A program made the position numbers and the translations under genes. The notes beneath the pieces were generated by a model that ran no database searches, had not been told where the DNA came from, and worked only from the letters and a program-made list of their open reading frames with translations. From Brevinematales bacterium (GTDB taxonomy: Bacteria; Spirochaetota; Brevinematia; Brevinematales; JAOACQ01), in the NCBI GenBank assembly GCA_020052515.1, contig JAGVOW010000067.1, forward strand, positions 1 through 34,420: a stretch of 34,420 nt of DNA, given 5' to 3'. Below, in pieces: positions 3,324 through 34,420 of the stretch; the stretch's first letter is position 1, and every line of letters starts with the position of its first letter.

Positions 3324-4676
3324 ATGCAGGACTCATTGCCGGGGGGCGATTTTCTCCTTCTTATTATTATACTCGTTTTTGGGTGTATTGCGGGCATTAC
3401 TTTTCTCATTTTTAATAACTGGGTAAAAAAAGGATATTTGTTTACCAATATCGAAAACGCTTTAAAGGTAAAGAACCATAAAATGGTGGTTGATCTTTGC
3501 TTGCGCTATCTAAAAAGCAAACCTCCCCATGCGTTGGTTTATTATTACATGGCAAAGGGTTATGAAGGGCTGGGGCAATTTATACCGGCCATCGCGAATT
3601 ATGAAAAGGCTCTTGTCCAGATAGAAGAGTGGGAAAAACAGGGACTAAGGGTGGAAATATTCTTAAAGCTGGGAACCCTGTATTCGGAACAAAAGAAGCT
3701 GGAACAGGCTATTGGATATTATCGAATGATCCTCCAAAAGCTGCCCAGCCACAAAGAAGCGATCTGGAGAATTACGGAGATTTATTTCGAAGCGAAAAAA
3801 TTTTCGCAGGCCAGAACCAATCTCGAGAAACTGGTTTCTTTAGACCCTTCTTTAGCAAAAGCCCATCTGCTTTTATCAAAAGTATACCACATTATGGGTG
3901 ATTTTCAGAAATCCATACTTCAATTGGAGAAGTTCTTTGATTTCACTGAAACGGTTTCTCTCGCGGTTAATAAAGAAATTTCCCTTCTTCTGGCGGATAA
4001 TTATCTGGCTCTTAAAAAATATAAAGAGGCCTTCAACGCTTTGAAACCCCTTTTAAGTGAAAAAGATTTATCCGGGACTGTGCTCTTAAAATGCGCCTCT
4101 GCTTTATTAAAAAGCGGTGAGTTTTATCAGGCCTTGAATTTAACAGATGATTTTTTATATCGGATACCTGTAGAACAGCGTTCCGGAGTCCTTTATAACA
4201 TCGGCCACATCTGTAAAACGGAGGGGGAGATTTTCCGGGCGCTGGAGACCTGGAAAACCGCTTCCTCTATCAATCCAAAATACCTGGACCTGGCGGAAAT
4301 CCTTGAAAATTATAGAGTTCTTATAGAAAATCCATGGCTGGAAAACATCTTTACTTCGGAAGAGGAAATCTTCGAAAAATATGTCCGGAAGAAATTCAAT
4401 TTAACCCTTGACAAAGACGTTGTTGAAAAGAGGAACGAGTTCTGGCTTTTTAAGCGCGAACTGCTTATGTTAATTGTGTTTCGCCTTTCCTCTGTAATAG
4501 ATACCAAAGCGCTGGATGAAATAGAAAATACTCTAAAAGAACAGAACATGATTCATTTTTCCATTATTCTTTACGCGCTTTTTGGCGTAGATGAAAATGC
4601 TTCAAAAAGTCCTTTTTTCAGAAAAATAAAAGAAGTGTCCGGCAAAGAATTTATAACATTTTTCAGCCAGCCTTAA
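3324..4676 (+). CDS. Membrane-anchored TPR protein
   Basis: This protein has 450 residues. A single hydrophobic segment (about residues 10-30) is followed by a basic stretch, so the body is predicted to be cytoplasmic. The rest is helical with several tetratricopeptide repeats, for example KSKPPHALVYYYMAKGYEG, an NYEKAL segment and LAKAHLLLSKVYHIMGDF. Two less regular helical segments make up the last 150 residues. TPR arrays act as protein-binding scaffolds; no enzymatic motif is visible. The layout resembles LapB-type membrane TPR proteins but lacks the C-terminal rubredoxin-like Cys motif, so that name is not used. Only 14 bases separate it from the histidine kinase, so it probably belongs to the signalling operon. 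Confidence 0.75.
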   Translation: MQDSLPGGDFLLLIIILVFGCIAGITFLIFNNWVKKGYLFTNIENALKVKNHKMVVDLCLRYLKSKPPHALVYYYMAKGYEGLGQFIPAIANYEKALVQIEEWEKQGLRVEIFLKLGTLYSEQKKLEQAIGYYRMILQKLPSHKEAIWRITEIYFEAKKFSQARTNLEKLVSLDPSLAKAHLLLSKVYHIMGDFQKSILQLEKFFDFTETVSLAVNKEISLLLADNYLALKKYKEAFNALKPLLSEKDLSGTVLLKCASALLKSGEFYQALNLTDDFLYRIPVEQRSGVLYNIGHICKTEGEIFRALETWKTASSINPKYLDLAEILENYRVLIENPWLENIFTSEEEIFEKYVRKKFNLTLDKDVVEKRNEFWLFKRELLMLIVFRLSSVIDTKALDEIENTLKEQNMIHFSIILYALFGVDENASKSPFFRKIKEVSGKEFITFFSQP

Positions 4677-19695: not shown

Positions 19696-20529
19696 ATGAA
19701 TGTGCTCATTTACACTCAATCCTACTACGCGAGAAATACTTTTGTGAACGCGTTGATCCCGAAAGGGATTACTTTGTATCATATTGAGCATTCGGAAGAC
19801 GTGATTAAAAAAATCTCGGCTGATAAACCTGAGATTATTGTTTTAGATGTCATTCAGGAAGATTATGCATCTACTTTTGAGCTGATAAAAGAAATAAAAA
19901 GCAACCCTTCGGAGGAGATGAAAAAAATACCGGTCATCCTGCTGATAGGTGGAATAGACAAGCAGTCTATCACGGCGGCAATCCAGGTAGGCGTAGTGGG
20001 ATTTATAAAAAGCAACGCTACAGAGGAATTTGTCTCAAATTACATATCTGAAATTTATCAAAAGATGAAAGGAATTCCACCCGAAAGAAAGTTTGTACGA
20101 ATTTCTATGGATTCCAATGATCCCAGCCGAAGAGTAGGAATCAAATTCCGTTCATCGGTAAATTCACAGCTCATTATCGGGGTAATGAAAGACATTAGCT
20201 TTGGAGGAATCGCCGCGGAATTGGTCGGCACATATCCCCCTGAGTCGATTGCCGTAGGGCAGGAAATAAAAAACATTCAGTTTATCCTCGATGGCCGGGA
20301 CCTTTATGTCGACGCCGTGGTGGTTGCCTACAAAGATAATAAATTTTGTGCTTTCCGGTTTTCTGACATGCCCAACGCGGTAAAAGAAACCATCAGCCAT
20401 TTTATTTTTGACCGGGTTACAGCCGCTTCCTCCATAAAGGAAGCGTCCAGGGAAGAAAAACAATCTGAAAAAAGCGGTTCACCCGCTCCTGAGGAAGCTA
20501 AAAATGCGGCTCCTGAACAAAAGAAGTAA
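19696..20529 (+). CDS. Degenerate receiver domain fused to PilZ (c-di-GMP effector)
   Basis: This protein has 277 residues. Residues 1-120 have a response-regulator fold with D51 (VLDVI) and K105 (FIK). The acidic residues expected after the first strand are missing (IYTQSY), so phosphorylation may be lost or altered. Residues about 128-240 form a PilZ domain with the c-di-GMP signature RKFVR (R131, R135) and DISFGG (D166, S168, G170). The C-terminal 30 residues are a disordered charged and Ala/Pro tail. It is probably a c-di-GMP sensor acting by protein interaction. The ATG follows a run of six G. The Shine-Dalgarno and the ATG of nadC lie inside its 3' end. Confidence 0.88.
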   Translation: MNVLIYTQSYYARNTFVNALIPKGITLYHIEHSEDVIKKISADKPEIIVLDVIQEDYASTFELIKEIKSNPSEEMKKIPVILLIGGIDKQSITAAIQVGVVGFIKSNATEEFVSNYISEIYQKMKGIPPERKFVRISMDSNDPSRRVGIKFRSSVNSQLIIGVMKDISFGGIAAELVGTYPPESIAVGQEIKNIQFILDGRDLYVDAVVVAYKDNKFCAFRFSDMPNAVKETISHFIFDRVTAASSIKEASREEKQSEKSGSPAPEEAKNAAPEQKK

Positions 20530-21406: not shown

Positions 21407-22577
21407 TAATTTTTATCTCAACACGGCGGTTCAGAGTACGGCCGCTCGCGGTGGAATTATCAGCGATGGGTTTTGTAGGGCCATAACCCATATAAGAAAT
21501 CCTGGTTTTTACCACCCCTTTTGATACCAGATAATCGGTAATTGCCATTGCCCTGTTCTCCGAAAGTATTGTGTTGTAAGGACTTGTCCCGGTATTATCC
21601 GTATGCCCCGAAACAACGATATCGAGAGCGGGATGTTGATTGAGAATCGCGGCCAGCTTATCCAGCTTTTCTTCAAATTCTTTTTTGATATTATAAAAAT
21701 TGATATCAAATAAGATATTCCCCAGATTAACGATGATCCCATCGATTGCCTCCCTGATATTAATCCCATTTGAGGGAGAACTGACCTGGCTGCTGATCTC
21801 CTTCATCAGGTTTGCTTTTTCAACATTGGTAACATCCGAAATTTCTTCCATAATACTGGCGGAATTTCCCTTGTAAAGAATCGCGTCCCCATTCCGGGAG
21901 GTATAGAGCAGATTGATTTCCTCACTATAAAAATAGGGCGCGGAACTTTCAATGTCCCAGTAGAATAAATTGTGGGTAAAACCGTATATTGAAGCGAGCG
22001 CCGGATCATCCTCCGGATTATATAGGATATCGTATTCCAGCGATATCACCGCAAGGGTTTTATTTGTAATAATGAGATTACTGAGATAGCGATATTTCAC
22101 ATCCACATCAATCTTAAAAACACCATTCTTATCGAAAATATTTTTCAGGACTTCCTCTCCCCGGGCATTCCAGTTATCACCTATATTAATCGAATTGGTT
22201 GGAAAAGTAGGGACGCTTCTGGTTGATGGAATAATATCACGCGGACTGACAAACATTTTCCCCCTTTCGTCCTGGGAATAAGTACCGGAGTAAACATTCA
22301 TTAATCGATAGGATTCATTAGTGCCTTTATGGCCATAATTGAAATACTTGCCGTTGTAAACGCCAATCCCGTTGGAAACAGCGGTAATCTCAAGAACTGC
22401 TTTATTCATCTGGTCATCGCTTTCTTGATAAATTTTATTCTGGTAAATATCAAAGATCACCTGGTTCTTGAAACGGAGTTTTCTGCCAACCTTCTGGTCA
22501 TATTTAAAGTCTAATGAAAAGGACAATTCGAAAATCAGTAATAATTGAATGAATAACAGGAAAGATATTTTATTCAT
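21393..22577 (-). CDS. OmpA-domain envelope protein
   Basis: This protein has 394 residues. A signal peptide (ISFLLFIQLLLIFELSFS) is followed by a ~245-residue beta-rich region that I do not recognise. The C-terminal ~110 residues form an OmpA peptidoglycan-binding domain: VVSGHTDNTG with the diaminopimelate-contacting Asp, LSENRAMAITDYLV, ISYMGYGPTKPIA, and NRRVEI with its arginine. The protein probably links the outer membrane or periplasm to peptidoglycan. The ribosome-binding site AAGGAGG lies 5 bases before the ATG. The esterase-like lipoprotein gene ends 24 bases upstream in the same direction, so the two may share a transcript. Confidence 0.9.
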   Translation of the reverse strand: MNKISFLLFIQLLLIFELSFSLDFKYDQKVGRKLRFKNQVIFDIYQNKIYQESDDQMNKAVLEITAVSNGIGVYNGKYFNYGHKGTNESYRLMNVYSGTYSQDERGKMFVSPRDIIPSTRSVPTFPTNSINIGDNWNARGEEVLKNIFDKNGVFKIDVDVKYRYLSNLIITNKTLAVISLEYDILYNPEDDPALASIYGFTHNLFYWDIESSAPYFYSEEINLLYTSRNGDAILYKGNSASIMEEISDVTNVEKANLMKEISSQVSSPSNGINIREAIDGIIVNLGNILFDINFYNIKKEFEEKLDKLAAILNQHPALDIVVSGHTDNTGTSPYNTILSENRAMAITDYLVSKGVVKTRISYMGYGPTKPIADNSTASGRTLNRRVEIKIITKE

Positions 22578-22601
22578 TGCGGCCTCCTTCTTTAAACATT
22601 T

Positions 22602-23480
22602 TTAACTGCTTGCGCTCTGAATTAACGCAACAATCTGATTTATAATATTATTTCGGGCCGGATGGCTATCAAATAAACCAAGCGAAACTAAATAAGCTAC
22701 ATATGGAAAATAGATTGATCCAGCAATAATTTCATCTCCCAAAGTTGTAAATTCATGCCAGAAAAAACAGTTTTTTATATCCCGAACATTAGAAATTCCA
22801 TCATCGACCCTTACATCATGAACGTTAGGCGCAGACGGAATTTTACCAAAAAGAGATCCTGAAATCAAATCACCATTTGCCCAGAAATTATAAAAGACTC
22901 TAGTATGGGGATAACTGGTTCCAAGAATAGCAAATGACATTTCAACAAGTTTTGCGTCGGTATAATCGCGAACCGTTTTCTCAGCAGAATCAGGCAGCCC
23001 GGAAGAAGTTCCCAGAGGAGAGCTCAGTGTTATATAAAGGTCACATTTAATCTGAGGTTCCAGAGAAAGTGCCAGATAGGTCAAGAGAGTTCCCCAGCTG
23101 TGGGAAATTACAATGAACGCTTTTTTAGTATTTTTAGCTTCTTTATAATTATTGCGCAAAAACTCACGAAGACTGCCGCCACCAGAGGGTTCTAGAATAG
23201 CAGTAGTATCTGCCGCGTCACCACTCCAATGAAAAGGCCTTATTGATTCAGAATTTATAATCTTTTTGAGATTTCCTTGAAGATAGTCATTCCTTTTTTC
23301 TATAGTAATTCTTGCAATTGTATTTACAAATGAAAGCCCATCAACAGTAACAATTATAGCCTTTATATTATCTATAGGTTTATGATTTGCCTGACCGCAT
23401 CCGGTTATAAAGAACAATAAAGTAAGAATAATTATCCTATAAATAATATTTGCAAGTACAGTATTGCTTTTTTTAATCAT
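22602..23480 (-). CDS. Alpha/beta-hydrolase-like lipoprotein
   Basis: This protein has 292 residues from the chosen start at 23480, which has AAGGA 7 bases upstream; in-frame ATGs at 23549 and 23498 lack this. The N-terminal hydrophobic stretch ends in the lipobox FITGC, so it is a lipoprotein. The segment VISHSWGTLLTYLAL has the SxSxG form of a hydrolase nucleophile elbow preceded by strands. FWHEF and DLISG could supply the rest of a catalytic triad, but the acid and His cannot be fixed. The role may be an esterase or lipase at the cell surface. It lies upstream of the OmpA gene and divergent from the TolC-family gene, with an operator-like palindrome in between. Confidence 0.7.
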   Translation of the reverse strand: MIKKSNTVLANIIYRIIILTLLFFITGCGQANHKPIDNIKAIIVTVDGLSFVNTIARITIEKRNDYLQGNLKKIINSESIRPFHWSGDAADTTAILEPSGGGSLREFLRNNYKEAKNTKKAFIVISHSWGTLLTYLALSLEPQIKCDLYITLSSPLGTSSGLPDSAEKTVRDYTDAKLVEMSFAILGTSYPHTRVFYNFWANGDLISGSLFGKIPSAPNVHDVRVDDGISNVRDIKNCFFWHEFTTLGDEIIAGSIYFPYVAYLVSLGLFDSHPARNNIINQIVALIQSASS

Positions 23481-23522
23481 ATAATTTTCCTTTTTCATTA
23501 TTAATTGTAAGTTAGTCACTAT

Positions 23523-23537
23523 TTGACTATTAGTCAA
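23523..23537. promoter_or_regulatory. Operator-like palindrome between divergent genes
   Basis: TTGACTA-T-TAGTCAA is a perfect 7-bp inverted repeat with a one-base centre. A further half-site TTAGTCA occurs at 23512-23518, 18 bases from the copy at 23530-23536. The site lies between the starts of the lipoprotein gene (23480, minus) and the TolC-family gene (23608, plus). TetR- and MarR-family regulators of efflux genes often bind sites of this shape; no regulator gene is present here. Confidence 0.5.
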
Positions 23538-23607
23538 GAAATAAATCATGAATACTCATTTGCTCTTTTTGGGTATGTTTATTATATTTAGAAAAAAGGA
23601 GAATAAA

Positions 23608-24972
23608 ATGAGAAATTATATCCTACTCTGTCTATTATTCATTCCTGCTATAGTCTATGCAGGCGAGACCCGCACTCTCACAATTAGCAACGCTTTAGGC
23701 CTCGCGCTTATGAACAATCTCCAGTTGCGGCAATATGAAAAAGATGTTAAAATCGCTGAGGCTCAATTCGGAGAAAGCTTTGCGGATTTCTTGATGCCGG
23801 GTATTTCTTTGACCGGAAACTACTCTTTGTCAGATCCTCTCACAGTCAGCAACAACATCACGAAATCGCCGTCCAGTTATATCTTTGACGGAAGCACGCT
23901 CATCCCAAACGAATTTACCACATTAACGAATGTCTATCCCGATACTTATTCTGCCGGTGTAACCGTTTCCAAGACGCTCTTTATGGGTTTTATACTTTGT
24001 AATTCACTTGAAATAAAAAAAATTGCGCTGGAACTGGCACGAAAGAAATATGACGAAAAAAAACGCGAGATTGTTTGTAATACTGAGCTATCCGCATACA
24101 ATCTCGCTGTCTTAAGGGAAAACATCAATCTATCGGAAGAATTAAACAGGCAGCTTTCAAATCAGCTCCGATTTTCTGTCAACAACTTTAAAAATGGCTT
24201 GGTTTCAGAATACGATAAAATCCGCGTGGAAGTACTCTATAAAAACAATCTGCCGAAACTTCTCTTAGTTCGCAGTGCGTACATCCTTGCGGCAGCATCT
24301 TTTTATCTCTCTATTGGGGTAAAAGATTATGACAATATTGAGCTTCTTGTCGACCTGATGGATTACACCAACCTGACTATGACAAATACCGATGAAGCGT
24401 TGGTTTTGCCGAAAGCCATATCCAACAGCATTGAATTGATCAGTATTGAGTATACAAATAAAACATTAGAGCTTACAAAGAGAATGAATGAAGGGAATTT
24501 GTACCCTTCTGTTTCAGCCGCTTTTAATTACCAATATAATTACCGAAGATATTTTTCCGATAAAGATAGAAATTGGTGGCCAAGCTGGTATGCCGGCCTT
24601 CAATTGTCATGGGCTTTAGACAGCTGGATTCCGGCATCCAGAACATGGAAAACCTCTGAGGAATTGCAGCAAACTATATTAAAAAACGATTTCGGCCGTC
24701 AATTGGCGTTAGACAACCTCAAAATTCAGGTAAAAACTTTGTTATTGCAGCAGGCCGTATCCGCTCAAAATATCTTGAGCCAGCAAGATTGCCTTAAACA
24801 AGCCAAAATGGGGATCAAAATGGCTAATGACAAATATATGGCGGGAACTGCATCCAGTATTGATCTTTCGGAAACCGAAATTTCCTACAACCAGGCACAG
24901 GCAAATTATCTCCAGGCAATTTATGACTATTATTCCAGCACTTTAAAGCTGAAAAAAATGATTGGTGAATAG
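23608..24972 (+). CDS. TolC-family outer-membrane efflux channel
   Basis: This protein has 454 residues from the ATG at 23608, which follows AAAGGAG; the upstream in-frame ATG at 23548 has no ribosome-binding site. A signal peptide (YILLCLLFIPAIVYA) is present. Two long helical, alanine/leucine-rich halves are separated by beta-strand segments. Typical TolC features are ISNALGLALMNNLQLRQYEK near the start, LMPGISLTGNYS, LYPSVSAAFNYQYNY in the second half, and a closing YNQAQANYLQAIYDYYSS segment. Such channels work with HlyD-type adaptors and RND, MFS or ABC pumps. None follows here, so it is an orphan; the nearest adaptor is the HlyD-like gene of the alginate locus 4 kb away. Confidence 0.9.
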   Translation: MRNYILLCLLFIPAIVYAGETRTLTISNALGLALMNNLQLRQYEKDVKIAEAQFGESFADFLMPGISLTGNYSLSDPLTVSNNITKSPSSYIFDGSTLIPNEFTTLTNVYPDTYSAGVTVSKTLFMGFILCNSLEIKKIALELARKKYDEKKREIVCNTELSAYNLAVLRENINLSEELNRQLSNQLRFSVNNFKNGLVSEYDKIRVEVLYKNNLPKLLLVRSAYILAAASFYLSIGVKDYDNIELLVDLMDYTNLTMTNTDEALVLPKAISNSIELISIEYTNKTLELTKRMNEGNLYPSVSAAFNYQYNYRRYFSDKDRNWWPSWYAGLQLSWALDSWIPASRTWKTSEELQQTILKNDFGRQLALDNLKIQVKTLLLQQAVSAQNILSQQDCLKQAKMGIKMANDKYMAGTASSIDLSETEISYNQAQANYLQAIYDYYSSTLKLKKMIGE

Positions 24973-25125
24973 TTTGCCTTTTTTTCAAGAATTGCCGAAA
25001 CTATTTATGTAGTGGAAATATCTAACGCATTATAATGAAAAAAAATCGATCAACTTGTGTTTAGTTATTTTGACATAAATATTTGCTATTTTTATTCTCA
25101 TACTGCATAATTCTCATAATAGACA

Positions 25126-25252
25126 TTCAAATCATATTTAATAAACCTGTCTTAACTTAAAAATTTATCCCTTTGCTTGAATATAGTTCTTTTAATAGTT
25201 TTTTCAAATCATTATTTAATAAACCCATCTTAATTTAAAAATCTATCCTTTT
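25126..25252. repeat. Pair of imperfect 49-bp direct repeats
   Basis: Copy 1 is 25126-25174 and copy 2 is 25203-25252. Both begin TTCAAATCAT and share TTTAATAAACC and CTTAA.TTAAAAAT.TATCC. They differ by about five substitutions and one inserted T, and their starts are 77 bases apart. The repeats are too long, too few and too unequal for CRISPR. They may be protein-binding sites or the result of a local duplication. Confidence 0.7.
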
Positions 25253-25278
25253 TTTCCTTTTTGTGTTTGCACACACCC

Positions 25279-25304
25279 ATTTCTTGCGCCTATGCGCGAG
25301 AAAT
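25279..25304. promoter_or_regulatory. Stem-loop in the lipoprotein leader region
   Basis: ATTTCTTGCGC (25279-25289) and GCGCGAGAAAT (25294-25304) pair over 11 positions with one G-U wobble around loop CTAT. It stands out as a GC-rich core in AT-rich surroundings. No T-run follows, so it is more likely an operator or RNA structure than a terminator. Confidence 0.45.
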
Positions 25305-25443
25305 ATTGCTTAACCGTATTTCTTTTCTATTTAGTTCTTTCTGAAACCTCTACAATATGCTTTTATGGAGGGAAACTATTGTATAGTTCTGAAAGGATCA
25401 ATCTATTTGATGCTAAACACAAAAAAACAAGGAGTGTAGGTAT

Positions 25444-26385
25444 ATGAAAGATCTTTTAACGGTAAATAACTTCAAATTGGCTGGCAAAACTCTTCCAGCG
25501 CTTCTATTGCAGCTAAGCATGCTGCTATTTGTTTCTTGCGCTGGCACTGGCATAGAAAATTCTGACATGCAAACTTCTGGTACTCTCGACAATAATCCGA
25601 ATGTGTCAAATTCCAGCACGAGTAATAATAATTCAGGGATTATTTTTCAACAAAATTTTAACAATGAAGCACTTGGCCTCTGTGATTCCGCACGAATTAA
25701 AGAAATGTGGGGAAATGTAAGCCTGACTAAAGCCTGTATAGACGGCGGCAGAGTGTCTATAACCAGTGAAAGTTCTAAACATAGTAATACTCTGAGAGTC
25801 TTATATCCGTTGACGAATTATGAGTCGGCATTAAGCGGCGCACAATGGAAAGTGAACCTGACTAATTCCCACGAAGAATTATACTGCAGCTACGATGTTA
25901 AATTTCAAAGCGGATTCGAATTTAATAATGGGGGCAAATTGCCAGGCTTAGCGGGTGGAACCGCGAATTCAGGAGGAGAAGTACCCACAGGCTACGATGG
26001 GTGGAGCGCTCGGATGATGTGGCGCACAAATTCCGCGATGATATTTTATGTGTATCATGTTGGACAGGCTGATACATATGGAGATTTGTTGTGGTGGAAA
26101 AGCAATGGGCTAAAGGAGACTTTTGTACCGGGGCAATGGTATCACCTGGCCCATAGAGTAGTTTTAAACACTGTAGGAAAAAAGAACGGGATTCTGGAAG
26201 GCTGGGTAAATGGAACAAATGTCTATTCCATTACTAATATAGAATTCAGAAAAACCAATGCATTAAAAATAAACATATTTTATTTCAGCACCTTTTTTGG
26301 GGGGAATTCCCCTGATTGGGGCAGCCCTAAAAAACAATACTCATATTTTGATAATTTCGTGATTTCTACCAGGCCACTGAAGTAA
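25444..26385 (+). CDS. PL14-like polysaccharide lyase lipoprotein
   Basis: This protein has 313 residues. A long signal sequence ends in the lipobox FVSC (C32). A ~30-residue Ser/Asn-rich linker follows, then a ~245-residue beta-jelly-roll-like domain. The domain carries the pattern of PL14 alginate/glucuronan lyases: GGKLPGL with K165, WSARMMW with S188 and R190, and FYVYH with Y202, Y204 and H205, plus FFGG and YFDNFVIS near the end. The 14-residue spacing between the S-x-R and Y-x-Y pairs equals that recalled for Chlorella virus vAL-1. The likely role is surface cleavage of a uronic-acid polymer, fitting the alginate-type operon 1.5 kb downstream. AAGGAG lies 9 bases before the ATG. Substrate is inferred. 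Confidence 0.7.
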   Translation: MKDLLTVNNFKLAGKTLPALLLQLSMLLFVSCAGTGIENSDMQTSGTLDNNPNVSNSSTSNNNSGIIFQQNFNNEALGLCDSARIKEMWGNVSLTKACIDGGRVSITSESSKHSNTLRVLYPLTNYESALSGAQWKVNLTNSHEELYCSYDVKFQSGFEFNNGGKLPGLAGGTANSGGEVPTGYDGWSARMMWRTNSAMIFYVYHVGQADTYGDLLWWKSNGLKETFVPGQWYHLAHRVVLNTVGKKNGILEGWVNGTNVYSITNIEFRKTNALKINIFYFSTFFGGNSPDWGSPKKQYSYFDNFVISTRPLK

Positions 26386-26394
26386 TAAAAATCG

Positions 26395-26428
26395 AAAAAC
26401 CCCCCGCTGTTTCAAGCGGGGGGTTTTT
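26395..26428. terminator. Bidirectional rho-independent terminator
   Basis: A perfect 14-bp stem: A5-C6-GCT (26395-26408), loop GTTTCA, AGC-G6-T5 (26415-26428). The A-run on one side and T-run on the other make it work on both strands. It serves the convergent lyase lipoprotein (plus) and CBM-like lipoprotein (minus) genes. Confidence 0.93.
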
Positions 26429-26444
26429 AATAGTTCTTTACAGG

Positions 26445-27428
26445 TTAATTCGTCGCATAAGTCAATACTATACCTGGGAATGGGTCAATGTGATATTTTC
26501 TGCACCTATTTCTATCGCTCCAGGAAGAAGTATTACTTCCGTTTGATTTATAAAAAGAGATAAACTGAATGCTCGTAGTGGTACTGGGAAGAATTAAGTT
26601 GAATTCCCAGTTTTCCATAGTCCTGTTATAACCATTGGGATAAAATGTATTTGTCGTTTTTACGGCGTAAAATTTTGGAAATGTCCGTTCATCAGGACGG
26701 TTCCATTCCATTGTATTTGTTTTATATATTATCTTGATATATTTTCCAGTGTCATTCAGGGTCTCATTCTTTACTTGAAAATGCCCATGTAAACGATAAC
26801 CGGTTAGTTCTCCGTTAGTATTAACTATTGGCGTTGCTTTTGCGCATTCAAATAAAAAATGCTTGCCCGTCGGTATAGCCTGGCCGACTACTCCACTGGG
26901 AAGGTTGGTATCAGGCATGGGGCATGTTTGATAAGCCCGGCCATATTCCGAAAAGTAGGAAACACCATTTTTAACATATTCTACTTTAAGATATAAGAGA
27001 GGGTGACTATTTATCGCGGTATCAAGAGCGACAAGCGGCGTACAGTAAAAAAACTGTCTGTATTTTCTATCATCCGTCTTGTTCGAACTTTTAACATTAA
27101 AATTCGACCAGTTAATCCCATCAGATGAATAATGTATCTTCACAGTCTGTGACTTGTTTGTTGTTAATTCGGTTTTACATTCGCCGTATATGCTACAATA
27201 CGCTATTAAACCTTCCATACGGACAACTTCAGACCGGCCCCAAGTTAATTTCACAATCGCATCATTCGCGCCTAAAACTTCCGAACTGATTCCATCACCG
27301 TCATCATCGCCAATATCAGCCGAATCGTCTCCAGATAACAAAGGATCATTTGCACCTAAGCTGTTATTACAACCTGCCATCCATAAAACACTTGTCAACA
27401 TAATGAGAAATAACACTGCCTTTTTCAT
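26445..27428 (-). CDS. Lipoprotein with two CBM21/53-like beta-sandwich domains (tentative)
   Basis: This protein has 327 residues from the ATG at 27428, which has GGAGG just upstream; the in-frame ATG at 27479 lacks one. The signal sequence ends in the lipobox WMAGC. An acidic linker (GDDSADIGDDDGDG), flanked by two LGAND motifs, follows. The remainder looks like two related ~120-residue beta domains. The first has VKIHYSSDGINWSNF and the second has ENWEFNLILPSTTTSIQFIS and FYKSNGSNTSSWSD, patterns reminiscent of CBM21/CBM53 starch-binding modules. The assignment is from pattern only. It is convergent with the PL14-like lyase gene and divergent from algD, so it may be a surface polysaccharide-binding protein. 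Confidence 0.5.
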   Translation of the reverse strand: MKKAVLFLIMLTSVLWMAGCNNSLGANDPLLSGDDSADIGDDDGDGISSEVLGANDAIVKLTWGRSEVVRMEGLIAYCSIYGECKTELTTNKSQTVKIHYSSDGINWSNFNVKSSNKTDDRKYRQFFYCTPLVALDTAINSHPLLYLKVEYVKNGVSYFSEYGRAYQTCPMPDTNLPSGVVGQAIPTGKHFLFECAKATPIVNTNGELTGYRLHGHFQVKNETLNDTGKYIKIIYKTNTMEWNRPDERTFPKFYAVKTTNTFYPNGYNRTMENWEFNLILPSTTTSIQFISFYKSNGSNTSSWSDRNRCRKYHIDPFPGIVLTYATN

Positions 27429-27915
27429 AATAGACCTCCATAAATTTCTAATTTTAACACCTTTAATATTCACTTCCACAACTGAACCTTTTCAAATTAT
27501 CCTGTATTCATATCATACCCCCTTCTAGAGACTATCAAGAGCTGATAGAATGAAAATTTAGGTTCTCAAAAAAAGTCGACGTTAACCAAACCTTATAAAG
27601 AACAATCTAAGCAATTAGTTCAAAATCGTCAAGTAAATATTTCTTGTCTACTTCACCCCCGCCTCATTTGGTTTAGCACGGTAAGACTAAAAAAACAAAC
27701 TTGACGAACATTCAGATTATGATTAATATCGAATTTGTTGGCTAGATTAGCTGAAGCTAAGAAGGAGGTAGAATATCGCATAAAAATTGAAAAGCTTTTG
27801 CATTAGCGAGCGCAAACATCTAAAAACATTATACATTCCGTTTTGAACCTTTTTTTTAAGTAAGAGTTAATAATTAGACCGTTTTAAATATGATAAATAT
27901 TAGGAGGAATGTAAA
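27429..27915. other. Divergent intergenic region before algD
   Basis: These 487 bases hold no full gene. A candidate plus-strand promoter, TTGACG-17-TAATAT, lies at 27701-27729 and would give algD a leader of about 180 bases. Between it and algD is a short open stretch (about 27724-27807) ending in a stop, which reads like the helical C-terminus of a lost gene (ARLAEAKKEVEYRIKIEKLL). A small inverted repeat CTATCA-5-TGATAG is at 27532-27548. No riboswitch could be recognised. Confidence 0.5.
27701..27729 (+). promoter_or_regulatory. Candidate promoter for the algD operon
   Basis: TTGACG (27701-27706, 5 of 6 consensus bases), a 17-base spacer and TAATAT (27724-27729, 4 of 6). It is the best-matching promoter I found upstream of algD, but the resulting leader is long. 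Confidence 0.35.
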
Positions 27916-29244
27916 ATGTCAAAGAGGATTAGTATTTTTGGAGCCGGTTATGTCGGCAGCGTATCCGGGGGTTGTCTCGCTAAACTCGGACATAGTGTTG
28001 TTTTGGTTGATATTGATAAAGTAAAAACAGACATTATCAATTCAGGGAAATCACCCATTATTGAGCCTGGCCTGGATGATTTATTATCCAATGGCGTCAG
28101 TAAAGGCCTGATTGAAGCCACTCAATCTACTGAGTACGCGATACTCAATACCGATATTTCGTTTGTTTGCGTGGGTACGCCATGCACCAAACATGGATGC
28201 CTGGACTTAAGCAATATTTACGCGGTAGTAAATCAAATAGCCAAAGCCATTTCGAAGAAAAAGGATTATCATGTCATTACGATCCGTTCCACGGTCCTTC
28301 CAGGAACTATTGATGCCTGTATTGGTATAATTGAAAAAGAAACGGGTAAGAAAAATGGAGTGGATTTTAGTTTTTGCTCTAATCCAGAGTTTTTAAGGGA
28401 AGGTACTGCGATCCACGATTATTTTAACCCGCCTTACACACTTATTGGAAACAATGATGAAAAGTCATTAGAAATCATGAAAAGCGTTTACCAGGATATT
28501 GAGGCGCCTATCTATAATACGGAAATAAAGATAGCCGAAATATTGAAATATATCAACAATTCTTTCCATGCCTTGAAGGTAGCTTTCGGCAATGAAGTGG
28601 GGTTGATCGCGAAGGATCTTGGAATTGACAGCCACAAGTTGATCGAAATCTTTATCAAAGATACAAAGCTTAATATTTCACCCTATTATCTAAAGTCTGG
28701 TTTTGCTTTCGGAGGCTCATGTCTGCCGAAAGATTTGAAAGCTCTTTGTTATTACGCTAAGGCCCAGAATATTAATATCCCGGTTTTGAGCCATGTTATG
28801 GCAAGCAACAACAATCACATCAACGCCGGAATTGACATGATCCTTTCCACTAATAAAAAGAAAATCGGAATTGTTGGACTGAGTTTCAAATCGGGAACGG
28901 ATGACCTGCGAGAAAGTCCGATGGTATTGATGGCAGAAACTTTGTTGGGAAAGGGCTTTGATATCCGGATTTATGATAAAAATGTATCTTTAGCCAGGCT
29001 TCATGGCGCGAACAAATCATTTCTTGAGTTTCACATTCCGCATATCTCAAAATTGATCGTAGACACTGATAAATTTGATGAAATGATTAATTTTTCTGAA
29101 GTAATTATTGTTGGAAATAAAGAGCCGGATCTGGTTGAGAGAATAAAGAAGGCCGTTAAAGAGGAAAACAAAATTGTAATCGATTTAGTAAGAATCGACC
29201 CGTTGTTGGTGACAAATAATAATTATCATGGTATATGCTGGTAG
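27916..29244 (+). CDS. algD: GDP-mannose 6-dehydrogenase AlgD
   Basis: This 442-residue NAD-dependent dehydrogenase oxidises GDP-mannose to GDP-mannuronate, the precursor of alginate. The Rossmann motif is GAGYVG (9-14), and the catalytic cysteine is C269 in FAFGGSCLPKD. Many stretches match Pseudomonas AlgD rather than UDP-glucose dehydrogenase, including GKSPIIEPGLDDLL, VRSTVLPGT-like IRSTVLPGT, NPEFLREGTAI, GLSFKSGTDDLRESPMV and the C-terminal HGICW. AGGAGG lies 8 bases before the ATG. It heads a run with an Alg44-like and an Alg8-like gene, which supports the GDP-mannose assignment. Confidence 0.92.
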   Translation: MSKRISIFGAGYVGSVSGGCLAKLGHSVVLVDIDKVKTDIINSGKSPIIEPGLDDLLSNGVSKGLIEATQSTEYAILNTDISFVCVGTPCTKHGCLDLSNIYAVVNQIAKAISKKKDYHVITIRSTVLPGTIDACIGIIEKETGKKNGVDFSFCSNPEFLREGTAIHDYFNPPYTLIGNNDEKSLEIMKSVYQDIEAPIYNTEIKIAEILKYINNSFHALKVAFGNEVGLIAKDLGIDSHKLIEIFIKDTKLNISPYYLKSGFAFGGSCLPKDLKALCYYAKAQNINIPVLSHVMASNNNHINAGIDMILSTNKKKIGIVGLSFKSGTDDLRESPMVLMAETLLGKGFDIRIYDKNVSLARLHGANKSFLEFHIPHISKLIVDTDKFDEMINFSEVIIVGNKEPDLVERIKKAVKEENKIVIDLVRIDPLLVTNNNYHGICW

Positions 29245-29257
29245 CGGAAATCAGAAG

Positions 29258-29291
29258 GCCCCCTACCCCCCATTAAAGGGGGGCAGGGGGC
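29258..29291. repeat. C/G-run palindromic intergenic repeat
   Basis: GCCCCCTACCCCCC (29258-29271) pairs with GGGGGGCAGGGGGC (29278-29291) with one A-C mismatch around loop ATTAAA. It lies between algD and the HlyD-like gene. The base right after it starts the stretch ATAGGAGGG, which is the Shine-Dalgarno of the next gene. Confidence 0.8.
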
Positions 29292-29305
29292 ATAGGAGGG
29301 TAAAT

Positions 29306-30433
29306 ATGAAAAAGATAATCCCAATAACCATCGCGCTTGTTTCCATTGCCGCCGGCACTGTGATGCTGATTTATCTCTATGGTTTTATTCAGCTCAATAC
29401 GCATTACTTTAAGGTGAAGAATGCCTATAAATCGGGAACTATGATATTCATCGGTTCCCAGATTTCTTCCAGGGTTGAGTCTATTGTCAAAGAAATCGGA
29501 TCGGAAGTAAAAAGCGGCGATGTACTGATCAAACTTGACCCGGTGGATATTGAAAAAAATGTGGATAAGCTCAAAGACGACCTGGCAACTCTCGAGAACT
29601 CATTGAAAGAAAAACGGGTTTTTTACGAAGAGTCTATGACCATGCTGAAATATTTGAAGAAGCGGAATGGTTATCTTTCGCGAATAAAAGAAAAAGATGT
29701 TGAAACTTACAATAATATGACCAGGAACGCGGAAGACATTTTAAAAATGAGCGAGGAATCCCATAAGACCGGGACTATTTCTGATATGGAAATGAAAAAA
29801 GCGGAAGATGACTATAATAATACCAGGAATAAGTATGAGGCCGGAAAGTTGGATATGGAACTATTTAAAAATGTTCATATCAACGCCGCCGAAGAGGGTA
29901 TTATTTTTGATAATGACAAGGTTTTGTTCAGCAAACGGGATCTGGAAAATCAAATCGAAATTCTAAACAGTCAAATCGAGCTGGACAGGGAAAAAATTCA
30001 GCGGGAAATGAAAGATTATGAAAAGTCATTGTTAAAGTCTCCTGTAGATGGCGTTGTGAATGAAATTATGATTAATCCAGGAGAGGTAGTTCAGCCCGGA
30101 CAAAAACTGATGACAATCACTCCCCCCGGAAAAGAATGGGTGGATGCTTATATCAATGAAAGAGATATCAAGCATATTCACCTGGGAGCAAAAACAAAAG
30201 TGGTCTTTAAGTCATTGCCCAATAAAGTATTCGGCGGCATTGTCAGCTACATTAGTTCCAGTATTCAGCCTGAAAATCTTGAAACAACTACTTATGGAAT
30301 GAAAATTAAGAACAATTCGGTTGGGTATGAGACAGAAACGGATAAGTTTCTGAAGATTCGGGTAGATTTCAACAATGAAGGTATTCAACTGCCGAATGGA
30401 GTTTCAGCGACAGTCTTGATCGCTGAAAAATAG
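29306..30433 (+). CDS. HlyD-type membrane-fusion protein (Alg44-like, without PilZ)
   Basis: This protein has 375 residues from the ATG at 29306, which has AGGAGGG 5 bases upstream; an in-frame ATG at 29228 inside algD would translate the repeat and is rejected. One N-terminal transmembrane helix (about 5-28) is followed by a biotinyl-lipoyl half-motif (IGSEVKSGDVLIKLD). Next come a ~150-residue coiled-coil hairpin, the second lipoyl half (LLKSPVDGVVNEIMINPGEV) and a beta-barrel. This is the layout of HlyD/EmrA adaptors and of the periplasmic part of Alg44. Pseudomonas Alg44 carries an N-terminal PilZ domain that binds c-di-GMP; here it is missing. It sits between algD and the Alg8-like synthase, so it is probably the synthase partner spanning the periplasm. 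Confidence 0.82.
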   Translation: MKKIIPITIALVSIAAGTVMLIYLYGFIQLNTHYFKVKNAYKSGTMIFIGSQISSRVESIVKEIGSEVKSGDVLIKLDPVDIEKNVDKLKDDLATLENSLKEKRVFYEESMTMLKYLKKRNGYLSRIKEKDVETYNNMTRNAEDILKMSEESHKTGTISDMEMKKAEDDYNNTRNKYEAGKLDMELFKNVHINAAEEGIIFDNDKVLFSKRDLENQIEILNSQIELDREKIQREMKDYEKSLLKSPVDGVVNEIMINPGEVVQPGQKLMTITPPGKEWVDAYINERDIKHIHLGAKTKVVFKSLPNKVFGGIVSYISSSIQPENLETTTYGMKIKNNSVGYETETDKFLKIRVDFNNEGIQLPNGVSATVLIAEK

Positions 30434-30437
30434 AAAA

Positions 30438-30501
30438 GGCCCCCTGGCCCCCTTAAAGGGGGAACCGAAGGCTTTTCCCCCTTTAAGGGGGCCAGGGGGC
30501 C
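30438..30501. repeat. 27-bp perfect inverted repeat with nested palindromes
   Basis: Arms 30438-30464 and 30475-30501 are exact reverse complements over 27 bases, with a 10-base loop CCGAAGGCTT. Each arm contains its own palindrome (CCCCCTTAAAGGGGG on the left). The arm unit GGCCCCCTGGCCCCCTT recurs in shorter form at 887-914 and 29258-29291. The right arm runs directly into AGGAG, the Shine-Dalgarno of the Alg8-like gene. The structure resembles a REP/MITE-type mobile repeat. Confidence 0.9.
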
Positions 30502-30513
30502 AGGAGAAATGCT

Positions 30514-32115
30514 ATGGAATTTTCTAAAGAATCGACCATTTATCTGGAGAAAATAAATAAGATTCTTTCTCCTCAGAAAAAGGAAGGTTTAAAAAATATT
30601 ATCATCATAATGCTCTATTCTATCGCGATCCTGTCATTGATATACCTGTTGTATGAGATCACTCGTAGATACTGGTATTATGATTCAATCAAGTTAGTTA
30701 TCGCCATTGGTATCTTAGGCGGTATCAGGCTCTTCATCCGGTTTCTTCATATCGCTCGCGTGATAATCTATAAAATAATCCTATTTCCTCGCCTCAAGAG
30801 GGAGGCGAGCACATCGTTTTCCAATATTAAAAATTTGTTTGTGATCGTTCCAACTTATATGGAGAAAGACTGGATTACCTATTCTGTATTCAAGTCGATC
30901 ATTTTAGAATCCGCGAAAGTCCTGATCCATGTTACGGTTGTGGTCTGCACGAATGACCCTGGTGATAGAAAAAACATCCACGATATTCTGGAAGAATTTC
31001 CACTTGCGGACAATACGGACATGCATATTATCAATCAAACAAAGACGGGCAAGAGAAACGCTCTGGCTGATTCACTCTGCTTTATTCGGACAATTGCTAA
31101 GGAACCGGAAAGATCTCTCATCGCGTTGATGGATGGCGATGCCATCTGGGGCAAGAATTTATTACTGAAGACCCTTCCCTATTTCGAAGTCAATCCACGA
31201 TTGGCCGGAGTGACAACCAATGAGGAGATTATCAGTTTTGGATCGGATTTTTATGAGCATTGGTTTGATTTCAGGCTTTCCATAAGAGATTATTACATGA
31301 GCAGTCATTCCTTTAGTAAAAAGATACTCTGTCTGACAGGAAGGTTTTCTGTTATTCGCGGAGATATCGGTGTTCGAGACGATTTCATTGAAATCGTTGG
31401 AAATGACAGTATGAATCATTGGCTCTGGGGATATGTGAAATTTTTGGGCGGTGATGACAAGAGCACGTGGTTTTGGATTTATAAAAACGGCCATCTGATC
31501 AATAAAAATGAATTTATGTACATTCCGGACGCCACTGCATACACCATTGAATGTATTAATGAAAACGGCGTTATGCGCACCTTGAAGAATCTGAAGCGCT
31601 GGTTTACGAATACAGCCAGAAATAACACGAGAAGCCTGCTTATTCCGCCGTTTGTCCGGACTCCTTTTTTTATCTGGTTCTGCATTTTGAGTCAACGCCT
31701 CACTATGTTTACGAACTTTATTGGAGTCATTACAGCGATTACGCTCAGCATCTTTGTCAATATTATATTTTTGCCGGCGTTTCTTTATGTTTTTTTACTG
31801 GGAAGTTTCTTTATCAATATAGTTATTTCTATTAGCCGTAAACGGATGCTCTACCATGGAATTTATATCCGTTTTTTCGATCAATTTGTAGGCACGGTTG
31901 TCAAACTCTGGGCGTTTTCGCATATGGCCCAGCAAAAATGGCTACACCGGGGTGGACAGAAGATGGAAGTAAAAGGGGGGTCTTTGTCGAATTTGCTGCG
32001 TTTGACATACGGCAAGTATGAGTTTGGAATTAAGATAGTCTTAATTGTTTTTCTGGTTATGCTGGTTACTGGAATTCTGAATTTCAACACATTGCGGTTA
32101 ATGTGGTCAAGATAA
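30514..32115 (+). CDS. alg8: Alg8-like GT2 polymannuronate synthase
   Basis: This membrane glycosyltransferase has 533 residues. Two N-terminal helices (about 27-47 and 57-77) precede a GT2 catalytic domain with FVIVPTY, the donor-binding MDGD, and TGRFSVIRGDI, NDSMNHWLWG, GGDDKSTWFW and RWFTNTARNN. About four transmembrane helices follow (from about 385). Several of these strings closely follow Pseudomonas Alg8 (TGRFSV, DDKSSWF, RWYGNTLRNN). Alg8 polymerises GDP-mannuronate and moves the chain through the inner membrane together with Alg44. Gene order here (algD, Alg44-like, alg8) is swapped relative to Pseudomonas (algD-alg8-alg44). The ribosome-binding site AGGAG is donated by the edge of the preceding inverted repeat. 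Confidence 0.88.
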   Translation: MEFSKESTIYLEKINKILSPQKKEGLKNIIIIMLYSIAILSLIYLLYEITRRYWYYDSIKLVIAIGILGGIRLFIRFLHIARVIIYKIILFPRLKREASTSFSNIKNLFVIVPTYMEKDWITYSVFKSIILESAKVLIHVTVVVCTNDPGDRKNIHDILEEFPLADNTDMHIINQTKTGKRNALADSLCFIRTIAKEPERSLIALMDGDAIWGKNLLLKTLPYFEVNPRLAGVTTNEEIISFGSDFYEHWFDFRLSIRDYYMSSHSFSKKILCLTGRFSVIRGDIGVRDDFIEIVGNDSMNHWLWGYVKFLGGDDKSTWFWIYKNGHLINKNEFMYIPDATAYTIECINENGVMRTLKNLKRWFTNTARNNTRSLLIPPFVRTPFFIWFCILSQRLTMFTNFIGVITAITLSIFVNIIFLPAFLYVFLLGSFFINIVISISRKRMLYHGIYIRFFDQFVGTVVKLWAFSHMAQQKWLHRGGQKMEVKGGSLSNLLRLTYGKYEFGIKIVLIVFLVMLVTGILNFNTLRLMWSR

Positions 32116-32140
32116 GAAAAATTTAATAAGGAGGACTATT

Positions 32141-33079
32141 ATGGGAAGAAGAACAATCGACCAAATGGAAAAGAGGTTTTCAGTCAATCTGGATGAGGAG
32201 AGGTTTTATGAGGATATTTTTCTCAGGACAAATCTTCTGCTGAAAAAGAAGGACCAAGAGAGGCTGAGAAATTCATCTGTGGCAACTATTGGATTGGGCG
32301 GGATCGGCGGAATGTCCGCGGAAATGATCGTCCGCTGCGGGATCGGAACTGTGGGACTTGCCGACATTGATTTCTTTGAACCCACCAATCTGAACAGACA
32401 GCTTTACTCTGACTTTTCGAATGCCTATGGCCCAAATCATCGTAGCCTAGACAAGAAAGGCCATGTCGCGGAAGCGCGGATGAAGCAGATCAATCCATTC
32501 TGTAAAGTTGAAGTAATCGCCAACGGCATCAACAACCAGAATGTCGAGGATTTCTGTAAAAAACAGGATGTCATTATCGCGCAGCCGGACCGGGAATCCA
32601 TAAAAGTATTGATTCACAGGATCGCCAAAAAGCATTCGATCCCGGTTGTTACTTCTTCACGTGTGAACTGCAATGGAAATCGCTGGACAATCGCGGCAAA
32701 GGTCTGGGATTATAAAAACAATCCGGGTTTAAAAACATTTGAGGAGACCAATCATCCGGCTCTCTTGAAATATTCTCTGGAAGAACTGACTTCGGATGTT
32801 TTAGGCGAATATGACAAACAAGATAAGGCAAAGGTCCGGAATAGATGGAAGGAGATCATTGAAAACCAGGAAAGTGAAAAATATGGGCTGAACTGTCATG
32901 AAAACTCCATGGAAGTTCTGAATAAATACCCGGATACCTTCCATAAATGCCATATCATCGCGCCGATAGCAAATATCGCCGGAGCGATGGGAAGTATTAA
33001 CGCTATTAAATTATTGCTGGATCAGCCTATTTACAACTTTGCTTTCGATTTCTGGAATGGCAACGCATTAGAAATATAA
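32141..33079 (+). CDS. ThiF/MoeB/E1-like adenylyltransferase in the alginate-type operon
   Basis: This protein has 312 residues. A Rossmann-type ATP-binding core shows GLGGIGG (51-57), ADID (74-77), NLNRQLY with the arginine finger R86, and K105/K106 in the expected position. The later Asp is in AQPDRES (D150), where MoeB has an Asp-rich loop. CxxC zinc pairs are absent, and no thioester cysteine can be assigned with confidence. The residues after about 180 do not match standard MoeB. The family activates a carboxyl group by adenylation, usually the C-terminus of a ubiquitin-like protein; no such partner is visible. It lies 25 bases after alg8 and 16 bases before the beta-helix gene, so it is cotranscribed. 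A role in polymer synthesis would be new. Confidence 0.85.
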   Translation: MGRRTIDQMEKRFSVNLDEERFYEDIFLRTNLLLKKKDQERLRNSSVATIGLGGIGGMSAEMIVRCGIGTVGLADIDFFEPTNLNRQLYSDFSNAYGPNHRSLDKKGHVAEARMKQINPFCKVEVIANGINNQNVEDFCKKQDVIIAQPDRESIKVLIHRIAKKHSIPVVTSSRVNCNGNRWTIAAKVWDYKNNPGLKTFEETNHPALLKYSLEELTSDVLGEYDKQDKAKVRNRWKEIIENQESEKYGLNCHENSMEVLNKYPDTFHKCHIIAPIANIAGAMGSINAIKLLLDQPIYNFAFDFWNGNALEI

Positions 33080-33095
33080 AAAAAGGGAGGACAGT

Positions 33096-34420
33096 ATGTT
33101 GAAAAGCTGGATTTTATTAGTTTCAATCATCGCTATTTCGCCTGGTGTAGCCGCCGCACAAAATCAGATAGACCCACAATCGAGGACAATGTTCCAGATT
33201 AATATCACTGAAGAGATAGAATCTAAAGATCATAAGATTATGGATATTAGACAATCTGGCGCTGTCGGCGATGGCGCAACTGACGACACGAGAGCTATCC
33301 AGAGCACGATTGATAGAGCAGAACCCGGAAGCGAAATTCAATTTCCCGAGGGGAATTATCTCATTACCAGCCCTATTCTGGTTCAGAAATCAAGACTGAC
33401 TTTAAAGGGAAAAAACGCGGTTATCATTTTCAAACCCTCTTTCGGCCATGAAATGAAATTAATCGGCATTAAAAACGGGAAATCTTCAGGATATAAAGCT
33501 TCACCCGCCGCTTTTATGGTAATCGGAGAACTAGAATCAAAGTATGGCTATGCTATCGAAAGCGTCATTGCGGGAAGCCAGAATGTTCTGTTGAAGGAAG
33601 ATTCCTCGGGCCTGGCGGAGGGAGATCTGATTGTAATCGCGGGCGGGGATTCCGGCAAGGTTTTGAACAGGAAAAAAAGTGGTTTATTGTACTATAGAGA
33701 ACAAAACTTTATGACTAAGATTGAAAAAAAATCTGGAAATATTCTGGGTGTTTCAGACACGATTTCCATTGCCTTTGATTCCATAAACATGCCCAGAATC
33801 TTCAAATTGAAACCGGTCAGAAATGTTCGCATCGAGGGTTTCCAGATAAATATCGCTGATAATTCTTCGCCGACATCCGGCGTGTTTTTTGCTTTTGCGA
33901 AAGATTCTGTTGTTCGAAATGTATCCATTAAAAACACATCCAGATCCGGTATCAGTATTTATTATTGCTATCATTGCAAAATTTCTGATAATACGGTGAT
34001 CGATTCTACTGTGTTTGAAGGCGGCGAGGGATATGGTATTGGGTTGGAACGTTCTCACTTTTGCGTGGCCAAGAACAACATTTTATCAAACCATCGTCAC
34101 GGTATTGTTTTAGACCATGGGAATGGTAATTGTCTGGTTGAGGGAAATCAGGTCAATTACTGCAGTACCAGCGCATCTATTGACATCCACGGTGAATATA
34201 ATTATTTCAACACGGTCAGGGGAAACACGATCAATGTCGGAAAAACAGGAATTGTCGTCGGCGGGGGCGGTGATGTTCACTACAACGATGGTCCCTATAA
34301 CACAATCATCGATAACAACATCAATAACTGCGATGTAGGGATCGAAATCCGTAATGAATCCGTTCTCACAATTATAGGAAAGAATAATTTTATCAATATT
34401 AAAAGGAAGAATATAGAATA
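33096..34420 (+). CDS. Secreted parallel beta-helix protein, 3' end beyond the window
   Basis: The reading frame is open from the ATG at 33096 (GGGAGG 5 bases upstream) to the window edge, 441 codons so far. A signal peptide (WILLVSIIAISPGVAAA) is followed by the start of a pectate-lyase-3-type right-handed beta-helix: VGDGATDDTRAIQSTI and IQFPEGNYLITSPI. Many short helix turns follow (VRIEGFQINI, CKISDNTVID, CLVEGNQVNY, NTIIDNNINNC). In alginate operons the equivalent protein is a mannuronan C5-epimerase (AlgG/AlgE), and HGIVLDH and SIDIHGEYN are similar in style. However, the DPHD active-site motif of those enzymes is not seen in the visible part. Epimerase or lyase are both possible. Confidence 0.8.
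   Translation, partial: MLKSWILLVSIIAISPGVAAAQNQIDPQSRTMFQINITEEIESKDHKIMDIRQSGAVGDGATDDTRAIQSTIDRAEPGSEIQFPEGNYLITSPILVQKSRLTLKGKNAVIIFKPSFGHEMKLIGIKNGKSSGYKASPAAFMVIGELESKYGYAIESVIAGSQNVLLKEDSSGLAEGDLIVIAGGDSGKVLNRKKSGLLYYREQNFMTKIEKKSGNILGVSDTISIAFDSINMPRIFKLKPVRNVRIEGFQINIADNSSPTSGVFFAFAKDSVVRNVSIKNTSRSGISIYYCYHCKISDNTVIDSTVFEGGEGYGIGLERSHFCVAKNNILSNHRHGIVLDHGNGNCLVEGNQVNYCSTSASIDIHGEYNYFNTVRGNTINVGKTGIVVGGGGDVHYNDGPYNTIIDNNINNCDVGIEIRNESVLTIIGKNNFINIKRKNIE

Follow-up and report, generated by a model that had tools for sequence, protein, structure and literature searches.

The targets that E1-like enzymes are chiefly known to activate are small proteins, peptides, tRNA, and N-acyl amino acids. 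TcdA, a tRNA t6A dehydratase that works without needing a ubiquitin-like protein, acts on a small carboxylate of tRNA, and to our knowledge no E1-like enzyme acts on a nucleotide sugar. Small-molecule adenylation by ThiF-type proteins has precedents in TyzB and TrzS, which act on a small-molecule carboxylate (PMC10404671, PMC12856293); Asp217 of TrzS is described as conserved in the ThiF adenylation motif, and cyclization is abolished when it is mutated (PMC12856293). Alginate synthase operons (algD-alg8-alg44-...) encode a GDP-mannose dehydrogenase, an Alg8-type synthase, an HlyD component, and a beta-helix protein, with a lyase nearby, and the Pseudomonas-type Alg44 protein combines PilZ and HlyD (PMC4594306). 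The operon described here shares the dehydrogenase, the synthase, the HlyD component, the beta-helix protein, and the nearby lyase. Unlike the alginate synthase operon, it includes an additional ThiF gene, an HlyD protein without PilZ, a beta-helix protein without the DPHD motif, and, upstream, a TolC-type channel and a family 14 polysaccharide lyase (PL14). It combines two known kinds of part, an E1-like enzyme and a synthase-dependent polyuronate operon.

The window, which is the whole stretch of DNA analyzed, is a complete contig of 34420 bp (C70) from a 2.6-Mb genome in 114 contigs. The ThiF/E1-like adenylyltransferase gene (32141 to 33079, + strand; 312-aa product, P0001) was assigned from the Pfam ThiF profile, alignment, and predicted structure. 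It lies 25 bp after the end of alg8 (32115) and 16 bp before the ATG of the beta-helix gene (33096), in agreement with the spacing given in the earlier note, and the GLGGIGG, ADID, and NLNRQ motifs on which that note had based its identification are all found in the product. The starts of thiF and of the beta-helix gene are each preceded by a Shine-Dalgarno-like GGAGG. P0001 matches Pfam ThiF (PF00899) with 123.2 bits (E=1.3e-35), above the curated cut-off of 28.1, and scores 122.8 bits for ThiF in the whole-genome search. Because the contig stops at 34420, within the beta-helix gene, the remainder of that gene and anything beyond it are missing.

The gene at 27916 to 29244 (+) encodes a GDP-mannose 6-dehydrogenase (AlgD), which matches Pseudomonas aeruginosa AlgD (1mfz) over its full length with 461 bits; the name UDP-glucose dehydrogenase, suggested by NCBIfam, was rejected, as the best enzyme of that kind scored 235 bits. 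The HlyD-type membrane-fusion protein that follows in the place of Alg44 (29306 to 30433, +) was identified by domain search; its longest open reading frame starts at 29228, but the likely start is 29306. A domain scan found no PilZ domain in this protein or in its counterpart in the second genome discussed below. The 533-aa family 2 glycosyltransferase at 30514 to 32115 (+) is an Alg8-type polyuronate synthase, judged by alignment and motifs, and retains the GKR, DGD, LTGR, GDDKS, and RWF motifs that are invariant in seven aligned alphaproteobacterial Alg8 proteins. Beyond thiF, domain search identified a secreted right-handed beta-helix protein of the carbohydrate-active type (33096 to 34420, +), which carries a signal peptide and is cut by the contig end. 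Neither this protein, which lacks a few C-terminal residues, nor its counterpart on contig L046 of the second genome contains the DPHD motif of the AlgG C5-epimerase; it is therefore not called an epimerase here, and its activity may be that of a lyase or of another type of epimerase. Where AlgG has DPHD, the two proteins (33096 to 34418 in the window and L046:2136-3530) share conserved D[IV]HGEYN and VHYNDGP motifs.

Upstream of algD are genes for a TolC-type outer-membrane channel (23548 to 24972, +; domain and NCBIfam profile matches), possibly the export partner of HlyD, and a PL14 lipoprotein (25444 to 26385, +; PF21294, E=5e-44). These are followed on the opposite strand by a gene for a putative secreted lipoprotein (26445 to 27479, -), which has a weak homologue near the L046 locus (L046:8234-9292; 23% identity, E=3e-8 in a single comparison). 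The L046 lipoprotein has a sub-threshold CBM_21 match, and the lipoproteins near both loci may bind polymer. No AlgI/J/F, AlgX, AlgK, or AlgE was found among the genes before the contig end at 34420 or on the short contigs L046 and L130 of the second genome, and a search by way of the L046 tetratricopeptide repeat (TPR) protein did not find a continuation of the operon past 34420. The earlier description of the operon as alginate-type holds for the precursor enzyme and the synthase, since the locus has a true AlgD and the Alg8 motifs, but not for the PilZ-less HlyD protein or the DPHD-less beta-helix protein. Taken together, the features of the locus indicate that the polymer is probably a mannuronate-based polyuronate made by a system other than textbook alginate synthesis.

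Two other features of the window were observed in passing. G+C-rich palindromes at 29257 to 29291 and 30438 to 30501 bracket hlyD and share CCCCC..TTAAAGGGGG; the latter forms a perfect inverted repeat of 27 bp around a 10-nt loop. The palindrome core has 9 matches against 0.4 expected from shuffles; this is possibly a dispersed REP/MITE-like repeat. At 13836 to 16091, adjoining a gene for a TrpB-like pyridoxal phosphate enzyme, is a gene for a 751-aa fusion of unusual architecture, in which one half resembles ATP-grasp/L-amino-acid ligases and the other is an FMN-dependent dehydrogenase.

When the Alg8 alignment was searched against 84,980 species genomes, at least 80 loci were recovered, and the best among the matches listed was L046 (JANQHU010000355.1), from a metagenome-assembled genome (MAG) labelled Bacillota, a phylum label that depends on the binning of the MAG. 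L046 opens inside alg8 and continues with genes for a 312-aa ThiF protein, a beta-helix protein, and the TPR protein. Another contig of the same MAG, L130, carries algD, hlyD, and the first part of alg8 up to its end. Joined, the two contigs would give the order algD-hlyD-alg8-thiF-beta-helix found in the window, with about 17 Alg8 residues missing between them. The earlier note had held that absence of the gene from related alginate loci would indicate a chance insertion; instead, alg8-thiF-beta-helix recurs on L046 and algD-hlyD-alg8 on L130. An in-frame TGA near base 4356 of the L130 alg8, close to the contig end, stands where the window has Trp. Recoding was rejected; TGA terminates algD, hlyD, thiF, and the TPR gene in that MAG, and the codon therefore likely reflects faulty assembly or sequence at the edge of the contig.

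Between the window and the second MAG, protein identity is 59% for AlgD, 54 to 55% for Alg8, 56% for ThiF, 38% for the beta-helix protein, and 30 to 32% for HlyD. ThiF is thus conserved at the level of AlgD and Alg8 and above that of HlyD or the beta-helix protein. Fourfold-degenerate sites in thiF are saturated (15 of 63 identical), and this combination fits a role beside the precursor enzyme and the synthase.

The statement in the earlier note that standard alginate operons do not include an E1-like enzyme agrees with the survey: among the alg8 loci listed, none of the 86 others (67 of which have flanks of 2 kb or more on each side) has ThiF by tblastn or by the ThiF profile on six frames. 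About 1,460 sampled genomes from four phyla (393 from the phylum of the window, 348 plus 29 around the L046 MAG, 343 from the planctomycete phylum, and 338 from the verrucomicrobial phylum) and 50 genomes with other alg8 loci yielded generic ThiF domains only and no ortholog of P0001, with the limit that two of the ortholog searches, which gave no match whatever, had no positive control. Viral contigs, plasmids, and phages likewise gave nothing or generic ThiF domains only, and no alg8 relative turned up in a further 295 genomes from the phylum of the window. The ThiF protein searched by itself against genome contigs gave no match, and the recurrence emerged only through the Alg8 alignment, for which there may be further loci beyond those listed. 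In 5.39 million open full-text papers (subscription papers being outside the scope), none named alg8 together with ThiF, or a GDP-mannose dehydrogenase together with ThiF and a polysaccharide. The gene is thus a rare yet repeated component of a distinct operon type, one that has probably spread horizontally.

The P0001 protein retains the ATP site of the superfamily. In alignments with Escherichia coli MoeB, ThiF, and TcdA, the ATP-site residues G51/G53/G56, D75, N83/R86/Q87, K106, and D150 are present. In these and in an alignment with 27 other E1-like proteins, none of the superfamily-invariant residues (G51/G53/G56, N83, R86, Q87, K106, and D150) is missing and D75 is likewise retained; the latter alignment also places R29 opposite the family's N-terminal arginine. 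D150 is probably the counterpart of TrzS Asp217. Over residues 18 to 312, the AlphaFold model (pLDDT 84.8, pTM 0.84) resembles ThiF with a Z of 25.7 and MoeB with a Z of 25.0, and P0001 is predicted from these residues and the modeled fold to be competent for adenylation. No signal peptide or transmembrane segment was found, which points to a cytosolic protein whose substrate should therefore also be cytosolic.

In its placement the protein stands apart from the described families. With the E. coli sulfur-carrier adenylyltransferases ThiF and MoeB it shares the fold and D75, R86, K106, and D150 of the ATP site; unlike them, it has no C-terminal zinc-binding CxxC pairs, no crossover-loop cysteine, and no nearby ThiS/MoaD, and it contains an extra conserved, family-specific segment at about residues 190 to 262 (FEETNH..LLKY). 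TcdA is the best match by sequence in the PDB (E=1e-14), but P0001 lies in a separate clade and lacks a tRNA-modification context. The TyzB/OxzB/TrzS cyclases and PRK14851/PRK14852/PRK08223 likewise contain a ThiF protein of about 300 aa, either standing alone or fused; unlike these, P0001 has no acyltransferase or nitroreductase partner in its operon and scores far under the cut-offs. The RiPP ThiF-like adenylyltransferases MccB and PaaA share the E1-like adenylation core (Z 21 to 22) but have an N-terminal RRE of about 90 residues, which is absent from P0001 and for which there is no room, because the E1 core begins near residue 18 to 36; no RiPP precursor-peptide gene was seen with P0001. 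P0001 is far under every NCBIfam equivalog cut-off, including those of ThiF TIGR02356 (89.1 bits against 275.25), MoeB TIGR02355 (71.8 against 376.55), and TcdA PRK15116 (61.2 against 304). In a maximum-likelihood tree, P0001 and the L046 ThiF protein form a separate deep branch apart from the MoeB/ThiF and TcdA groups, and P0001 does not group with TyzB, OxzB, TrzS, PRK14851, PRK14852, or PRK08223 (weak support).

P0001 is probably a working part of the polymer pathway with a chemistry that has not been described. The intact ATP site, the lack of sulfur or ubiquitin machinery, the predicted cytosolic location, and conservation at the level of AlgD and Alg8 favor the adenylation of a small-molecule carboxylate from which the synthase is supplied. 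We tentatively suggest, as a reading that is possible rather than probable, that P0001 is an operon-specific cytosolic E1-like adenylyltransferase for such a carboxylate, with GDP-mannuronate as the leading candidate. In this mechanism P0001 would bind Mg-ATP and form an acyl-adenylate on a small-molecule carboxylate rather than on a ubiquitin-like protein; AMP would then be displaced by a nucleophile (an amine, a hydroxyl, or an intramolecular one), and the modified building block would be supplied to Alg8. GDP-mannuronate is the obvious carboxylate because it is the product of the neighboring AlgD, and the reaction would turn its uronate carboxyl into an amide, ester, or lactone group; alternatively, the substrate would be a small acid that donates a substituent. 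Both catalytic activity and a small-molecule substrate are predictions, and a uronate substrate is a guess. The narrower proposal, that P0001 adenylates GDP-mannuronate or another uronate precursor so that Alg8 makes a polyuronate with amide, ester, or lactone groups, is rather unlikely. Uronamide formation has a precedent in a different polysaccharide, where uronic acid is converted by an AsnB-type amidotransferase (PMC7468200). Counting against the preferred reading, no amine- or acyl-transferring partner was seen in the operon, where the window contig ends inside the gene after thiF, and only two members (P0001 and the L046 protein) are known among the matches listed; it is also possible that a protein substrate is encoded elsewhere in the genome. 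If the GDP-mannuronate proposal is true, P0001 would be the first E1-like enzyme with a nucleotide sugar as substrate, and would set apart a class of chemically modified alginates. The conservation of a dedicated E1-like enzyme in an operon for polyuronate synthesis suggests that exopolysaccharide synthesis can include a step not yet described, which may yield a charge-neutralized or amidated alginate whose modification is made before polymerization.

The earlier note had proposed that the enzyme could adenylate a carboxyl group of a uronic acid, a small protein, or a substituent donor. Judged by its fold and conserved ATP site, carboxyl adenylation remains the leading guess. The small-protein option is weakened. 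An E1-like fold nearest to ThiF and MoeB, together with a ThiS-like protein ending in GGG on contig C31, would suit an enzyme that activates a ubiquitin-like or sulfur-carrier protein, for instance the one on C31. Such an enzyme would thereby transfer sulfur or modify a protein of the operon such as Alg8 or HlyD. However, the C31 protein sits near its own ThiF, the only other ThiF-family gene found in the genome, and with this separate pair P0001 is unneeded to explain thiamine synthesis. Moreover, no open reading frame of 30 to 130 aa with a Gly-Gly tail was found in window positions 22000 to 34420, L046, or L130, and no E2, JAB, or rhodanese domain was found among the operon-region proteins scanned in the (truncated) window contig and the second MAG. 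This, with the missing zinc and crossover cysteines, makes a protein substrate less likely, and we consider the idea quite unlikely. Activation of a small acid (acetate-like, amino acid, or keto acid) as the donor of a polymer substituent, replacing O-acetylation by AlgI/J/F, is unlikely as well: the part of the operon seen has no MBOAT or AlgF gene, unlike alphaproteobacterial loci, but AlgI could sit beyond the truncated contig, and no acyltransferase partner was seen.

With HlyD lacking PilZ in both loci, unlike the Pseudomonas-type Alg44 (PMC4594306), and with thiF directly 3' of alg8, P0001 might act as a nucleotide-sensing regulator of the synthase in place of the missing c-di-GMP sensor; this is very unlikely, as the complete catalytic set would be needless for a pure sensor and a PilZ protein is encoded in the window at 19696 to 20529. 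Equally improbable is that P0001 makes an unrelated small molecule, such as an N-acyl amino acid oxazolone like those of TyzB/OxzB, and that its position is incidental. E1-like domains of the FeeM-ThiF-nitroreductase type do occur in other exopolysaccharide/PEP-CTERM loci, and residues 18 to 176 of P0001 give a significant profile match to this type of domain, but a scan of proteins in and around the operon found no FeeM-type acyltransferase or nitroreductase, and the slot is conserved in two distant genomes. Conservation of position and orientation in the second MAG, where the protein is 56% identical and fourfold sites are saturated, makes chance insertion of a ThiF paralogue with no role in the pathway extremely unlikely, despite the absence of thiF from the 86 other alg8 loci listed and from relatives.

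The searches also brought up several neighborhoods of separate interest. On a Nitratidesulfovibrio plasmid, L149:5098-8067 encodes a 989-aa FeeM-ThiF-nitroreductase fusion (PRK14852) in a PEP-CTERM/exopolysaccharide neighborhood. Among the matches listed, PL14 lyase genes adjoin Alg8-like synthases at 19 loci in cyanobacteria, planctomycetes, and Salinicola/Halomonas (L047-L049, L051, L052, L055, L059-L061, L064, L066, L076, L077, L080, L088, L089, L096, L097, and L123). In the gammaproteobacterial PL14 loci the dehydrogenase shares only about 33% of its residues with AlgD, which suggests that they may make a different polyuronate, for example, glucuronan. Finally, a Deinococcus aetherius plasmid (L041) carries a GDP-mannose-dehydrogenase-like gene beside genes for an alginate-lyase-family protein and an AsnB-type amidotransferase, a neighborhood hinting at an amidated uronate polymer.
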